Shown: one piece after another, positions 10,766-40,256 of the stretch | Numbering within the stretch: position 1 is the first letter of the stretch | Layout: every line of letters starts with the position of its first letter | Source: a bacterium | GTDB taxonomy: Bacteria; Actinomycetota; Acidimicrobiia; Acidimicrobiales; Bin134 | Assembly: GCA_026708015.1 (NCBI GenBank) | Contig: JAPOVT010000054.1 | Location: forward strand, 62,001 to 126,000 | Direction of reading: 5' to 3' | DNA: 64,000 nucleotides | The notes under the pieces: generated by a model | What the model was told of the DNA's origin: nothing | Seen by the model: only the letters and a program-made list of their open reading frames with translations | Database searches by the model: none | Position numbers and translations under genes: made by a program

Positions 10766-11994
10766 CAGATCACCCCCTCGGCCGCCAAGTCGGCCAGATC
10801 GGCGTCCGAATAGCCGAGCAGGCCTACGAGGATCTGGCGGTTGTGCTGGCCCAACAGTGGGCCGCCGCGCTCCAGCACCCAGTCGGTTTCAGAGAAGTGG
10901 GCGGGGATGCCGTCGACCCGCACCCGGCCCATCTCGCCGTGGGTGACGGTGGGCCACAAACCCCAGACCTCGGTGTTGGGGTCGTTGTCCACCCGGTCGG
11001 CCGGCTTGGCCACCCCGGCGGCGGGCACCCCGACGGCTTGGAGCTCGGCGGCGGCCTCGAATCGATCCCGACCCGAGGTCCAAGCCCGCACCGCGTCGTC
11101 CAGATCGTCCTCATGGGCCAGCCGGCCAGCTAGGTCGTCGAACCGACGGTCGTCGATGCCCATGAGCTCGGCGATGGCATGCCAGTCGCGCTCGTCTCGG
11201 GCGGCCAGGGCCAGCCAGGCGTCGTGCCCATCGGCCTCGTAGATGCCGTGGGGGGCCATGGCCGGGAACTGGCTGCGGTTGGAATAGGGCATGCCGTCGC
11301 GCCGCAGTGGCCGCCCGTTCACGGTGTAGTCCAACACCGCCGGGCCGAGCATGGTGGCCCCGGCATCGGTACAGGACATGTCGATCCACTGGCCCTCGCC
11401 GGTGCGGCTGCGGTGGATCAGCCCGGCCATGATGGCCATAGCCATGAAGTTCCCTCCGTGGTGGTCCATGTAGGAGTAGCCCCAACCGGCCGAGGGCATG
11501 TCGGGCAACCCGGAGGTGAAGGTGAGGCCGCAACAGGCCTGCACGATCGGCCCCCACGTCTTGTACCTGCGATAGGGGCCGGCGTGGCCGAATCCGCAGT
11601 TGGACACGTACAGGATGTCGGGCTTGATCTCCCGCAGGCGGTCGTAGCCGAAGCCGAGGCGCTCCAGCACCCCGGCGGCGAAGTTCTCGGTGACTGCGTC
11701 GCACTCGGCGATCAGCTGGGTCAGGAGCTCCTTGCCCTTGTCGGTGCGGAGGTTCAGGGTGATGCCCAGCTTCTCCACGTTGTGGTTGTTGAAGCACCCG
11801 CCGAACTCGTGGCCCCGGCGCTCATCCACGAACGGGGACGTTCCCCGGAGCACGTCCCACTTGCCGAGGCGCGCCGGGTCTTCAACCCGGATGATCTCGG
11901 CGCCGAATGCGGCCATCCACCGGGTGGCCCCCGCTCCGGCCAACTGTCCGGTGAAGTCGCAGATGCGAATGTGGGACAAAGCCTCAGATTTCAC
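10765..11994 (-). CDS. CaiB/BaiF-family CoA transferase, second subunit or paralogue
   Basis: A 409-residue family III CoA transferase with ATRWMAAFGAEIIRVEDPAR at the N-terminus, KLGITLNLRTDKGKELL, and the probable catalytic Asp in GEGQWIDMSCTDA. The C-terminal LLGQHNRQIL motif is usual for the family. Its ATG overlaps the stop of the AAA/DUF4143 gene by four bases, and its stop overlaps the next transferase start, so translation is coupled through three genes. Acyl donor and acceptor are unknown. Confidence 0.87.
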   Translation of the reverse strand: MKSEALSHIRICDFTGQLAGAGATRWMAAFGAEIIRVEDPARLGKWDVLRGTSPFVDERRGHEFGGCFNNHNVEKLGITLNLRTDKGKELLTQLIAECDAVTENFAAGVLERLGFGYDRLREIKPDILYVSNCGFGHAGPYRRYKTWGPIVQACCGLTFTSGLPDMPSAGWGYSYMDHHGGNFMAMAIMAGLIHRSRTGEGQWIDMSCTDAGATMLGPAVLDYTVNGRPLRRDGMPYSNRSQFPAMAPHGIYEADGHDAWLALAARDERDWHAIAELMGIDDRRFDDLAGRLAHEDDLDDAVRAWTSGRDRFEAAAELQAVGVPAAGVAKPADRVDNDPNTEVWGLWPTVTHGEMGRVRVDGIPAHFSETDWVLERGGPLLGQHNRQILVGLLGYSDADLADLAAEGVI

Positions 11995-13709
11995 GGCCCG
12001 ACCTTACGCGGTGTCGCTCGGTCTTCCTCGACGGGTGTCCGGTACTCGAGCAGCGACGATTGGCCGCGCATGGCGACGATGCACAGGTCGCGTCTCTTGC
12101 CGTTGGCGTCTTCGAGGCGAAGCGGCTCACCGCCGATTGCAAAGTGGACGGCGCCGGAGCTGAGATTGCCGTTGACGGCGATGTTGGTCGTGTACAGATA
12201 GGTCCGCCCCTGCTCATCGAGAATGGGGTTGAGCCGGCCTTCGATCCCAGGCAAGTTGCCGGTCTGGTCTTCGAAGATCACCGACCCTCCCTCGCCGAGC
12301 GGTTCCAGATCGGCCCTCAACGCGCCCGATGCCGGGATCCAGTCTGTCGAAATGTGGGCCCCGAGGCCCGGTCCGGCGATGAACACGGTCATCGGCTGAT
12401 CGTCGGAGTGCAGTTCGAGGCGAGCCACTCCGCCGGGGTCGGTCGCAGCAGCGCGCCGCGTGCCGTTGGGGAACAGTGCGAGCACGGCCGCACCGACGAC
12501 CGGAGCGCCCTCGCAGACGACCAGCACAGCCGACTCTGTGTCGAACCGCCGCAGGGCTGCGGGGAACCTGCTGAGCGGGACAACCTCGACATCGGACCGC
12601 GACTGCGCTTGGTTGCCGCCATAGACGACAGTTCGCTCGGTAATCGCGGGAACAGTGGCGGCGACTCGGCTCAGCGGCCGCATCCAGCCAGAGGCAACCG
12701 TGGCGCCCGACTTGGCCTCGATGGCGTTGATGCCGCGCCCGCTTTCGTAGAAGAGGTCGCACTCAAGCCCACCAGACTCCCGGTAAAAGCTAAGCCGAGG
12801 CTGGCGGCCGTTGTTCCAGCAGTGCTTCACGGCCTCGGCGACAACGATGTTCTCGAACAGCTGGCCGCGAAGGGGATGGGTCGCGATCTGGTCGGCTTCC
12901 TGAATTCCCAGGAGATAGCTGGCGAGTCCGACATCGTAGAAGTAGATCTTTGGCGTCTTCACCAGCCGCTTGCGCATGTTCGCGTGGAACGGTTGGAGCA
13001 GAAAAACGATGTAGCTGCGCTCAAGCACGGCGAGCCAGTTCCGGACGGTCGTGCGGCTCACGCCGACATCGTCGCCAATCGACGTGAAGTCCAGCAGGCT
13101 GCCAACACGGCCAGCGCAAAGCGCAGCGAACTGCCTGAATGCCGGCAGATCGCCAACGCCGCCCATCCGGCGCACATCGCGCTCAACATAGGTCTCGAAA
13201 TAATCGGCGAGCGCCTGGCGAGGCTCGAGCTGCTGATCGATGATTCGCGGGTAGAAGCCTCCGTAGGCAATGTCGGGGAACGAGGCGGCCCCACCCGCTC
13301 TGCGGCGTTCTTCGAGCGAGAACGGCAGCAGCCGCAACTGGGCGACGCGACCGGCAAGCGACTCGCTAACGGCCTCGTTGAGATCGAAGTTCTCGCTGCC
13401 GCTCAGCACGTACTGGCCGTTGGCACCACTGGAGTCGGCTGATTCCTTGAGATACGGGAACAAGGACGGCACGTGCTGCACTTCGTCGATGATTGCCGGA
13501 GTGCCGATGTCGCGCAAAAAGCCCCTAGGGTCGTCCTCAGCCCGATCGCGGACATCCAACCCGTCCAAGCTGACGTATTTGACCCCTGGATCGGTAAAGA
13601 CGGCCTTGCACAGCGTCGTCTTGCCTGATTGGCGCGGCCCGGTCACAGACACGAACGGGTACTGCCGAAACAACTTCGGAAGGAGGCCAGCAATCTCGCG
13701 TAGGATCAT
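11991..13709 (-). CDS. AAA_14/DUF4143 ATPase with a C-terminal beta-rich extension
   Basis: A 572-residue protein. The N-terminal ATPase has Walker A GPRQSGKTT near residue 24 and Walker B AIIDEVQHVP near residue 71. A winged-helix-like part with SIGDDVGVSRTTVRNWL sits near residue 212. The DUF4143 domain (KIYFYDVGLASYLLG, FYRESGGLECDL, EAKSG) runs to about residue 385. Such proteins usually stop near 400. Here about 185 more residues follow, beginning VLVVCEGAPVVGAAVLALFP and resembling a carboxypeptidase-regulatory-like beta sandwich. A palindrome lies just upstream of the start. Function of the family is poorly known. Its overlap with the CoA-transferase gene may be fortuitous. Confidence 0.85.
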   Translation of the reverse strand: MILREIAGLLPKLFRQYPFVSVTGPRQSGKTTLCKAVFTDPGVKYVSLDGLDVRDRAEDDPRGFLRDIGTPAIIDEVQHVPSLFPYLKESADSSGANGQYVLSGSENFDLNEAVSESLAGRVAQLRLLPFSLEERRRAGGAASFPDIAYGGFYPRIIDQQLEPRQALADYFETYVERDVRRMGGVGDLPAFRQFAALCAGRVGSLLDFTSIGDDVGVSRTTVRNWLAVLERSYIVFLLQPFHANMRKRLVKTPKIYFYDVGLASYLLGIQEADQIATHPLRGQLFENIVVAEAVKHCWNNGRQPRLSFYRESGGLECDLFYESGRGINAIEAKSGATVASGWMRPLSRVAATVPAITERTVVYGGNQAQSRSDVEVVPLSRFPAALRRFDTESAVLVVCEGAPVVGAAVLALFPNGTRRAAATDPGGVARLELHSDDQPMTVFIAGPGLGAHISTDWIPASGALRADLEPLGEGGSVIFEDQTGNLPGIEGRLNPILDEQGRTYLYTTNIAVNGNLSSGAVHFAIGGEPLRLEDANGKRRDLCIVAMRGQSSLLEYRTPVEEDRATPRKVGP

Positions 13710-14776: not shown

Positions 14777-14797
14777 CTCAGGGCTGCGACCTGGGGC

Positions 14798-14828
14798 TTG
14801 CCCCCCCCCCCCCCCACATCTTTAGAAT
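14798..14828 (+). promoter_or_regulatory. Predicted promoter with a 15-C tract in its spacer
   Basis: TTGCCC at 14798-14803 is a 4/6 match to a -35 element and TAGAAT at 14823-14828 a 5/6 match to a -10. The spacer is 19 bases and consists mostly of an unbroken run of 15 C (14801-14815, the first three shared with the -35). The -10 ends six bases before the GTG at 14835, consistent with a leaderless mRNA. Changes in C number would alter the spacer. The run is a sequence fact; promoter and slippage are inference. Confidence 0.5.
14801..14815. repeat. Homopolymeric C15 tract
   Basis: Fifteen consecutive cytosines lie 20 bases before the start of the His-rich secreted protein and 25 bases after the stop of the dehydrogenase. 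No other homopolymer of this length was noticed in the window. It could mediate slipped-strand variation or be a sequencing-length error. Confidence 0.9.
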
Positions 14829-14834
14829 GCCCGC

Positions 14835-16577
14835 GTGCAAAAAACAGGTTTTCGTATTGTGGCTGCGGTGGCGACGTTGGGGCTGGGCATCGCGGTGGCG
14901 GCTGGGGCGGGGGCGTTCTCGTCTGATCGGGTTGATGTGTCCGCGGGGGCGATGAACGCCGACGAGGTGGTGGTGCATGAGCTGTGGCACCAGCACCAGT
15001 GGGACCACAACGACCGCGGCCCCCACAACCACCCCCGCGACAGCCACAACCACAGGACGCGGCAGAACCACTCGCACCCTGCCGCCGACGAGGAGCACAC
15101 CCACCACGGAAAGTGGGGTGATATACGCACCCACCACGACCACTCGCACCCCGCCGCCGACGACGGCCACCACCACCACGCGGGCGACGGCGCTCTCACG
15201 CACAGCGGCGCCCACCACAACGCGTTTATCGGGCACAGGCTGACCCACGTACAGACGCTCCACACCCACGGCCACAGCCACAGCCACAACGCCGTGACCA
15301 CGACCCACGAACACGATGGGTTCGGGCTCCACAGCAGCCACCCGATAGCGAACCGGGCCGGGCACACGGGCACTCACGACCACGGCGACTTGGGCAGCCA
15401 TACCCACACCTACAGCAACGGCAGCGCCGGCGTGTCGTTCACCTACCCGCACACCCACAACCACAACAACTACGGCACCCACACCCACCTGGGCAGCGAC
15501 AACAGCCACTCTCACAGTCACAGCGGCACGGGCGTCCACACCCACGGCAGCACCGGCAGCATCACCCTGCCAGTGACCCACGCCCACGACGGCCACGGCA
15601 CCCACACCCACGGCACGGGCGGCGGCGTGGAACTGCCGGTGACCCACGCCCACGACGGCCACGGCACCCACACCCACACGTCCAGCAACGTAACGCTGCC
15701 GATGACCCACACCCACGCCACAGGCGCCCACGCCGCCCACACCCACAGCGACCACAACCACGACGGGGCGGCGTTGCACAAGCACGTCTCATGGACGCCG
15801 AAGGCGCGCACGTTGGCGCCGGTGGGCGGCGACCCGTCGGGAGACACCTACACCATCACCGTGCCGCAGCGGCCCGCTGAGGGCCAGACCCTGACGGTGT
15901 GGATCGGCGTCGAGCGCGCCGAGGTGGCCGGCTCGGTCGCCGTCGAGCCGGCCCGGCTCGACATCACCCGGGCCAACTGGGACCAGACCCACACCATCAC
16001 CGTCACCGCGTCGGACGACGCGCAGCCCGGCGACTGGTTCGTGATACGGCACTGGTTCAGCCGCGGCTTCTCCGACCCCTACATCGCCGCCTACGAGCGG
16101 GCCGGAACGCTGTGGTCCTCGATCCCCAGGTTCGACGTGACCGGCCGGGTGTTCGACCCGCACGACGTGCTCGACAGCGACGACACCTACGCCACCGACG
16201 ACACCGAAGCCAGCGACGACACCTACGCCACCGACGACACCGACGCCACCGACAGCGGCGGCGCGCTGGGGCCGGGCGACAACGGCCGGGAGGGAGGCAG
16301 CCTCGGCGGCGGCGCTACGGCGTGCGCCACCGACGACACCGATCTGCTCGCCAAGGTCCGCTCCAAGACCCAGGACCAGTGGAACGGCGGCCGCCCCGAC
16401 CTGCTGGAGACGTTCACCCGCGCGTACCGGACCATGCTGGGCGAGGACGACTACACCGTCGCGCAGATCAAAGCCCGGCCCGACCGCCAAACCCCCAACT
16501 GGCAGGGCAGCGGCCCCAACACGCTCTGGCAGGCCGTCTACGCCGAACTCGACCGGCTCCAAACCTGCCGCAACTGA
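14835..16577 (+). CDS. Secreted histidine-rich repeat protein
   Basis: A 580-residue protein of unknown function. It begins with a Sec signal peptide (MQKTGFR, a hydrophobic stretch, then AGAGA|FSS, near residue 27). Residues about 48-320 hold roughly 69 His, mostly as HxH pairs (THTH, HSHSH, HAHDGHGTHTH), mixed with Gly, Asp, Asn and Thr. A 22-residue unit is repeated nearly in tandem. A beta-type domain follows (TYTITVPQRP...HTITVTASDDAQPGDW, about 335-400), then an Asp/Thr-rich linker (DDTYATDDT, twice) and a C-terminal helical domain flanked by two Cys. Zinc, copper or nickel capture at the cell surface is the obvious guess, but nothing here proves it. It is monocistronic. Confidence 0.82.
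   Translation: MQKTGFRIVAAVATLGLGIAVAAGAGAFSSDRVDVSAGAMNADEVVVHELWHQHQWDHNDRGPHNHPRDSHNHRTRQNHSHPAADEEHTHHGKWGDIRTHHDHSHPAADDGHHHHAGDGALTHSGAHHNAFIGHRLTHVQTLHTHGHSHSHNAVTTTHEHDGFGLHSSHPIANRAGHTGTHDHGDLGSHTHTYSNGSAGVSFTYPHTHNHNNYGTHTHLGSDNSHSHSHSGTGVHTHGSTGSITLPVTHAHDGHGTHTHGTGGGVELPVTHAHDGHGTHTHTSSNVTLPMTHTHATGAHAAHTHSDHNHDGAALHKHVSWTPKARTLAPVGGDPSGDTYTITVPQRPAEGQTLTVWIGVERAEVAGSVAVEPARLDITRANWDQTHTITVTASDDAQPGDWFVIRHWFSRGFSDPYIAAYERAGTLWSSIPRFDVTGRVFDPHDVLDSDDTYATDDTEASDDTYATDDTDATDSGGALGPGDNGREGGSLGGGATACATDDTDLLAKVRSKTQDQWNGGRPDLLETFTRAYRTMLGEDDYTVAQIKARPDRQTPNWQGSGPNTLWQAVYAELDRLQTCRN
15573..15677 (+). repeat. Direct repeat inside the His-rich gene
   Basis: A 39-base unit encoding VTHAHDGHGTHTH occurs identically at 15573-15611 and 15639-15677, a 66-base period. 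A diverged third copy (MTHTHATGAHAAHTH) follows. A second pair encoding HSHPAAD lies near 15069 and 15141. Identity at the DNA level suggests recent duplication and room for length variation. Confidence 0.8.
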
Positions 16578-16691
16578 CACCACCCCACAGCCGCACACCG
16601 GAGCGCCTGACTTCCTCTTGGAACAGCACCAAAAGGCAACACTCATCGTAGCACTGCTCTCGGCCAGCACCGCCGTCAGTTCCGAAAGCCA

Positions 16692-18258: not shown

Positions 18259-18684
18259 TTACAGCGGATTCCGCCAGCGCAGTCCGGGGAACCTGGCGAA
18301 GTCGGAATCGTTGGAATGAACCTCGGCCTGATGCTCGATGGCGAGTGCGGCAATGTGGGCGTCGGTGACGAGGTTTCCTCCGACACCGGCAGCCACAACG
18401 AGCTGGCGGAATATGGCCAGATGCTGGGCACCGGGGTTAAGCGGGGTTACTTGGGGCAAGCTGAACCATTCCCCAACCAAATCGACCGCCCGTTCTGGGG
18501 AGACCGGTCGAATCGCCGTTCGGTGTTGGGTGACGATCCGAACGAATCCCGCAGCCACCACCCAAGGAAGCCCGACTCGCTCAGTCCCGTTGGCCATTTC
18601 CTCCCACCAGTCGCGGGCCTCCTGGTGGAATGGCGCATCCTCGTTGTAGGCGTAGACCAGCAGGTTGACGTCGGGGACGATCAC
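18259..18684 (-). CDS. vapC: VapC-type PIN-domain toxin
   Basis: A 141-residue PIN protein with the first catalytic Asp in MIVPDVNLLVYA, further acidic positions in LVTDAHIAALA (near residue 107) and HSNDSDFARF (near residue 125). The length is right for a complete toxin. VapC toxins cut tRNA or rRNA in the cytosol. Its start overlaps the antitoxin stop by four bases, the usual vapBC arrangement. Confidence 0.88.
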   Translation of the reverse strand: MIVPDVNLLVYAYNEDAPFHQEARDWWEEMANGTERVGLPWVVAAGFVRIVTQHRTAIRPVSPERAVDLVGEWFSLPQVTPLNPGAQHLAIFRQLVVAAGVGGNLVTDAHIAALAIEHQAEVHSNDSDFARFPGLRWRNPL

Positions 18685-18974
18685 CGGTCAGACGCCACTT
18701 GACGCCCTTGGCTCTCCACACGGGCTTCCTTCTGCAGGAAAGCCTCTGCTTCGAGCTCGTCGTTGAGCTGGTTGAGCCGGAGGGGATCAACGCCCGGCTG
18801 CAACCCGCAATTGAGCGGTTGAACCCGGAACGGCTCAGACGGCGTCGCTCTCTCAGGCCCCAGTCCTTTCCTCAGAATCTCGTTGACCACCTGCTTGAAC
18901 GGCTGTTCGAGCAGCCGGGCCCGCTCCTTTAGCGCATCGGCCACGTCATCGTCTAGGGTCAGCGTCGTCCTCAT
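18681..18974 (-). CDS. vapB: Ribbon-helix-helix antitoxin (VapB type)
   Basis: A 97-residue protein with an N-terminal RHH DNA-binding fold (MRTTLTLDDDVADALKERAR, then FKQVVNEILRKGL) and a longer toxin-binding tail. The ATG at 18974 sits six bases after a -10-like CAAGAT and has no Shine-Dalgarno, so the operon is probably leaderless. It is the first gene of a two-gene operon with vapC and divergent from a methyltransferase gene. Confidence 0.85.
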   Translation of the reverse strand: MRTTLTLDDDVADALKERARLLEQPFKQVVNEILRKGLGPERATPSEPFRVQPLNCGLQPGVDPLRLNQLNDELEAEAFLQKEARVESQGRQVASDR

Positions 18975-39596: not shown

Positions 39597-40256
39597 GTGA
39601 GACTGGTAGTTGCCAGGTGTTCGGTGGACTACGACGGCCGGTTGGCCGCGCACTTGCCCGAAGCGGTGCGGCTCATCATGATCAAGGCTGACGGCTGTGT
39701 GGCCATCCACGCCGACGGGGGCGCCTACAAACCGCTGAATTGGATGAACGCCCCCAACCGGCTGTCGGAGGAAGACGGCGTGTGGACGGTGGTCAACCCG
39801 TCGGGCGAGAAGTTGACCATCACCATTCACGAGCTGATCTCCGACACCGACCACGATCTGGGCCACGACCCCGGCTTGGACAAAGACGGCGTGGAGGCCC
39901 ACCTCCAGGAACTGCTGGCCGCGTCGCCCGACGTGCTGGGAGACGGATTCCGTCTGGTGCGGCGGGAATACCCCACCGACATCGGCCCGGTGGATTTGCT
40001 GTGCCGCGACGCCGACGGGAACGCCATCGCGGTGGAGATAAAGCGGCGGGGGGAGATTGCCGGGGTGGAGCAGCTCACCCGCTACCTCCAATTCTTGAAC
40101 CAAGATCCGACCCTGGCCCCGGTGCAGGGCATGCTTGCCGCCCAGGTCGTCCGCCCCCAAGCCCGAGCCCTGGGGGCCGACCGGGGCATCGAATGCGTGG
40201 AGATCGACTACGACCTGCTCCGGGGCATCGAGCCCGACCAGGCCAAGCTGTTTTAG
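39597..40256 (+). CDS. nucS: Mismatch-specific endonuclease NucS
   Basis: A 219-residue NucS/EndoMS from GTG 39597 ([20 protein letters not shown]), which matches the known actinobacterial N-terminus. The DNA-binding part has [14 protein letters not shown]. The C-terminal RecB-like nuclease has [10 protein letters not shown] and [21 protein letters not shown] (Asp, Glu-x-Lys). It is the non-canonical mismatch repair enzyme of actinobacteria and archaea, working with the sliding clamp. An extended reading from 39549 lacks family similarity. Confidence 0.94.

Follow-up and report, generated by a model that had tools for sequence, protein, structure and literature searches.

Does the long poly-C run that precedes a gene for a secreted histidine-rich protein act as an adjustable promoter spacer, such that expression of the gene could be switched by slippage, and is it a solitary oddity of its genome? 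As assembled, the homopolymer (C15) occupies exactly positions 14801-14815 on the forward strand of the window, the whole 64-kb stretch of DNA that we analysed from an acidimicrobiial host genome (G000). A TTG at 14798-14800, itself preceded by GGC (GGCTTG), forms with the first bases of the run a -35-like hexamer, TTGCCC (14798-14803, +), which is a weak -35 that takes three of its bases from the tract. A -10 element, TAGAAT, follows at 14823-14828 (+), and the tract fills most of the 19-base spacer between the two boxes (14804-14822). The GTG start codon at 14835 lies 6 nt past TAGAAT, for a full layout of TTGCCC-19-TAGAAT-6-GTG. These coordinates bear out the original prediction, which had placed C15 between a TTGC-type -35 and TAGAAT with a 19-base spacer and had given the spacer as 17 after loss of two C. 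All other homopolymers in the window are at most 7 nt long, and extrapolation of the C-run distribution gives an expectation of ~7e-5 runs of at least 15 per window. In this the locus is arranged as porA/opc-type promoters are, with a homopolymer of hypermutable length, far beyond chance, lodged between the -35 and the -10 of a secreted- or surface-protein gene.

The first T of TAGAAT lies 12 nt before GTG, as in a leaderless TANNNT promoter, a type that has been described for actinobacteria (PMC3160421). TANNNT motifs at gaps of 5-8 nt before start codons are enriched in the window (14 against ~2 expected), and promoters of the host organism generally have the motif 6-8 nt ahead of the start codon. 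Most of the leaderless promoters in the window, as judged by eye, have no obvious -35. High-GC actinobacterial leaderless promoters may function without need of a -35, and the length of the spacer would then be less important.

The gene downstream (14835-16577, +) starts with GTG, is probably leaderless, and encodes a protein of 580 aa. Its signal-peptide-like N-terminus (MQKTGFRIVAAVATLGLGIAVAAGAGAF) and its histidine content of 24% over residues 45-335 agree with the secreted His-rich product that had been predicted, and the protein is presumably located at the cell surface. It has no match in Pfam or NCBIfam, while its C-terminal ~85-120 aa are common to four other large ORFs of the genome. 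Tract promoter and gene together make up an insert of ~1.9 kb (14777-16691) between a D-2-hydroxyacid dehydrogenase gene on the left (PF02826; 13850-14776, +) and a convergent AMP-binding enzyme gene on the right (PF00501/PF13193; 16692-18431, -). The insert is absent in 13 relatives, in which the flanking genes abut, so the gene was either acquired in this lineage or lost from the other genomes, and it brings its own tract promoter. Other parts of this neighbourhood also differ between relatives. A 572-aa ORF, ATPase-like by eye (11991-13709), separates a CoA-transferase-like gene from the dehydrogenase gene; as these two are neighbours in relatives, the ORF is a second lineage-specific insert; it has its own TAGAAT-6nt-ATG start. 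A PIN-like toxin and antitoxin-like pair (18259-18974, by eye) lies between the AMP-binding gene and a methyltransferase gene, and the PIN-like ORF was found at the site in only 1 of the 13 relatives (L111).

The combination of boxes and tract recurs elsewhere in the genus. In a scan for tracts set between a TTG -35 box and a -10 box with A2/T6, at a spacer of 14-21, 12 of 180 tract-orientations carried the full design, the window locus among them, compared with 0.94 +/- 0.96 when the flanks were shuffled (maximum 5 in 500 shuffles). Other examples are TTGACA-16-GAAAAT (L231), TTGACT-16-GATAAT (L221), TTGACT-20-TACATT (L186), TTGATT-19-TACAGT (L196), and TTGAAA-15-CATACT (L045). A further scan, independent of the shuffled-flank test, defined leaderless-type tracts as those that precede a TANNNT lying 5-8 nt from a start codon; TTG was found no more than 12 nt upstream of 10/10 such tracts versus 17/170 others (Fisher P = 1.1e-9, or 5e-8 with orthologs collapsed). 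Other tracts, too, have GGCTTG or TTGAC immediately before them, and GGCTTG alone precedes eight tracts, including that of the window, where 0.55 were expected. At three orthologous loci from as many species, a collagen-like secreted gene is preceded by CACAAAGGCTTGC-Gn-TAACTA[G/A]CAT with n = 14, 16, and 16; both boxes are kept, even in the one species whose immediately preceding DNA is different. An architecture recurring in sister genomes far above shuffled controls lends support to the promoter-spacer phase variation that had been proposed for the window tract.

These associations bear on the possibility that the tract is real but passive, namely a slippage hotspot in a dispensable acquired gene whose leaderless -10, TAGAAT, alone drives expression, so that length hardly matters. 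This would fit both the scarcity of obvious -35 boxes among leaderless promoters of the window and the position of the gene on a lineage-specific insert. It accounts poorly, however, for the appearance of TTG upstream of a tract precisely when a leaderless -10 follows, and for the retention of both boxes in the collagen-like ortholog trio despite the altered DNA upstream of one, and we regard it as unlikely. As a separate observation on this protein type, secreted collagen-triple-helix proteins occur under poly-G spacer promoters in four genomes (L045 in G000, L189 in G012, L226 in G003, and L241 in G006); L045 and L189 have a Pfam collagen-triple-helix match, and the N-terminal repeat family of the collagen-like proteins (ENLLNTYRC...) has many copies in every genome of the genus.

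Comparison of strains, which the original prediction had proposed, yielded differences in tract length at sister loci, but not at the window gene itself. The promoter-type tract of the collagen-like orthologs differs in length between species (G14/G16/G16). A tract in a recombinase gene reads C16, C18, and C12 in G012, G010, and G019, respectively (L269/L270/L271), within 700 bases on the left and at least 300 on the right that are 100% identical; between G010 and G019, 1,700 flanking bases are identical while the tract differs by six. Of these lengths only C16 leaves the gene in frame, and the recombinase is probably phase-variable. The occurrence of identical flanks in MAGs of three different species points to recent mobility or contamination. 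The window gene was found once, with no second copy and no homolog for comparison of tract length, the relatives sharing short modules only; in the 13 relatives compared through orthologs of the flanking dehydrogenase, the site is empty and there is no tract to compare. Switching of the window tract is thus what we infer from tracts of the same kind that vary on identical or near-identical flanks elsewhere.

The original prediction was right about the reality of the tract, but the tract does not stand alone: the same genome holds 39 C/G runs of at least 10. Among the Acidimicrobiia MAGs used as relatives, C/G runs of at least 12 number 0-65 across members of the genus versus 0-3 in most other families of the order. 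ORFs with signal-like starts open at 7 of 28 clean G000 tracts and at 19 of 62 tracts elsewhere, compared with 2.4% per strand at random points. A start-codon criterion without the signal-peptide test was dropped and is not used as evidence, because random points satisfy it 49% of the time. As judged from gene content, ten or more tract loci are concentrated in surface, restriction, and recombinase genes, classes typical of phasomes.

Such counts raise the question of whether the run was created or lengthened by an assembly or sequencing artefact, either two-colour Illumina reads with poly-G dark cycles or a misjoin. In G000, poly-C/poly-G blocks do lie at N10 scaffold gaps or contig ends (C7:6333-6524, C41:104093-104253, C67:2598-2776, and C48:1-51, the last contig starting with C51); these probably arose as poly-G artefacts of short reads or where the assembly broke at a real tract, and they inflate naive tract counts. 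Since some G000 tracts look like debris, C numbers in this genome are uncertain, and counts of C runs of at least 12 spread from 0 to 65 between drafts, as artefact would also predict. The window tract, however, lies inside its contig between correctly ordered native flanks; tracts are placed non-randomly at promoters and start codons, and orthologs from three species have kept the tract of the collagen-like gene. Moreover, two relatives with single-contig chromosomes (OX638350.1 and OX638344.1), which project naming suggests are long-read assemblies of a sponge-associated genus, contain long tracts internally, C16 in G014 and C25 in G007. The G014 locus has the anatomy ATG-ACAGCACAATTCA-C16 followed by a frame for a secreted-type ORF; with 16 C the two are out of frame, and with 15 or 18 they would be in frame. 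Together, the single-contig genomes and the positional statistics render a pure artefact quite improbable.

A translational switch, in which an upstream start would read via the tract into the His-rich ORF as the anatomy of many other tracts of the genus would allow, is barely credible here, because an in-frame TAG (14823-14825, within the -10) separates tract and GTG at any C number and, unless translation starts elsewhere, blocks frame fusion. We therefore rejected a frame-fusion switch for the window gene. The window tract does not lie in a reading frame, whereas tracts at other loci of the genus do. Many of the clean tracts follow one of two designs, the promoter spacer or this start-codon-proximal one, in which the tract lies 4-16 nt past an ATG or GTG and an ORF opens from it. 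Seven of 23 such loci are in frame, the one third expected from random slippage or random length. In G000, loci of this design include genes for a fn3 protein that is secreted (L040), two related secreted proteins (L047 and L057), two tyrosine recombinases (L044 and L067), and a Mrr/ResIII type IIG restriction enzyme (L055); the gene for a secreted Calx-beta protein (L063) has a poly-G tract instead. Another type IIG gene, with an Eco57I methylase domain (L058), carries two poly-G tracts and has counterparts in G012 and G013.

The mismatch repair complement of the genus would permit slippage at such tracts. MutS (PF00488) was undetected in all 22 genus genomes, in a search whose control was positive in 11 of 14 named genomes, while NucS (PF01939) was found in 19 of the 22; in the window, the NucS/EndoMS C-terminal domain of this mismatch-repair endonuclease is encoded at 39891-40250 (+; C54:101891-102250). 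NucS of M. smegmatis leaves 1-2 base indels unrepaired, which its authors tie to mycobacterial phase variation (PMC11551767). With MutS apparently lacking and NucS blind to indels, repair would not counter slippage.

We consider it probable, on the basis of the genomic evidence, that the secreted His-rich surface protein is expressed from a leaderless promoter whose spacer is C15, and that the tract acts as a slipped-strand phase switch at one locus of a genome-wide set. Replication slippage in cells would add or remove C's from the tract, escaping repair in an organism that apparently has no MutS and uses NucS. The number of C's would then set how far TTGCCC stands from TAGAAT (19 at present, as against 17 at C13) and in what helical phase the boxes face each other, and these in turn would alter promoter strength while leaving the protein unchanged. 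The present spacer exceeds the usual optimum by two bases, so expression may be low or OFF in the state that was assembled. The locus would belong to a genome-wide collection of poly-C/poly-G contingency loci, both in promoter spacers and near start codons, through which random on-off switching of surface, restriction, and recombinase genes is probable.

The mechanism class is already known from porA and opc in Neisseria. In Neisseria meningitidis porA, a poly-G tract occupies the stretch from the -35 to the -10, so that indels alter the spacer. The window tract shares this position between the boxes; it is poly-C on the coding strand, with poly-G versions at sister loci, and its start codon coincides with, or adjoins, the inferred transcription start, unlike that of porA. 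The phasomes of Campylobacter and Neisseria resemble the present set in their many poly-G/C tracts, their surface and restriction-modification genes, and the approximately one third of tracts in frame; those are pathogens, whereas here the hosts are uncultured, presumably host-associated Acidimicrobiia in which tyrosine recombinase genes are prominent. Likewise, opc/opcA of N. meningitidis has a variable poly-C in a surface-protein promoter that leads to transcriptional phase variation (PMC3960869), though in a Gram-negative pathogen, in contrast to an actinobacterial, probably leaderless promoter in a genus with MutS undetected and with switching inferred. Gardnerella, another member of the Actinomycetota, is rich in G/C tracts, ~70% of them within 300 bp upstream of ORFs and often near surface-protein genes; it is a cultured human-associated genus in which some variants were verified, and the section consulted describes no leaderless TTG-tract-TANNNT design (PMC11287997). 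Mycobacterium tuberculosis also shows phase variation by homopolymer indels, in glpK and ESX-1 genes (PMC11898584, PMC11868660), and such actinobacterial indels are unrepaired by NucS (PMC11551767). Those cases concern single genes, at rates reported to be roughly tenfold lower than for most repeat-mediated switches (PMC11868660), whereas in the Acidimicrobiia long tracts recur at dozens of loci, including promoter spacers.

A literature search with partial coverage turned up no account of phase variation from Acidimicrobiia or from sponge symbionts. New here would be the lineage, a multi-locus set outside known pathogens, and the leaderless-promoter version. On balance, we favour the view that an uncultured, non-pathogenic Acidimicrobiia genus runs a multi-gene poly-C/G phasome under NucS-only mismatch repair, comprising leaderless promoters with near-all-homopolymer spacers (for secreted His-rich, collagen-like, and other proteins) and start-codon tracts (in genes for fn3 and other secreted proteins, type IIG restriction enzymes, and tyrosine recombinases). 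The phasome outside known pathogens is named as an open question in PMC11868660, and tens of poly-C/G loci in apparently non-pathogenic, uncultured Acidimicrobiia would make it testable in public metagenomes. The apparent loss of indel repair, with no MutS detected and NucS only, would be tied to very long homopolymers as switches, and the loci suggest a simple recurrent promoter design (-35 box, G/C tract, and leaderless -10) that can be searched for elsewhere.

Several start-codon-proximal or coding tracts have features of their own. In the type IIG restriction-modification gene the two poly-G tracts are separate and occupy matching positions across three species (L058 in G000, L194 in G012, and L208 with L202 in G013). 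A P4-type integrase in G000 (L031, C4:41519) carries a G17 run, in frame, in its N-terminal arm-binding domain and lies near a predicted tRNA-like sequence (by eye). In G003, L217 and L225 share an identical upstream stretch, including the ATG and first codons up to the tract (C12/C13), and beyond it they run into different secreted-protein genes; the poly-C may here be a recombination joint that swaps downstream cassettes.
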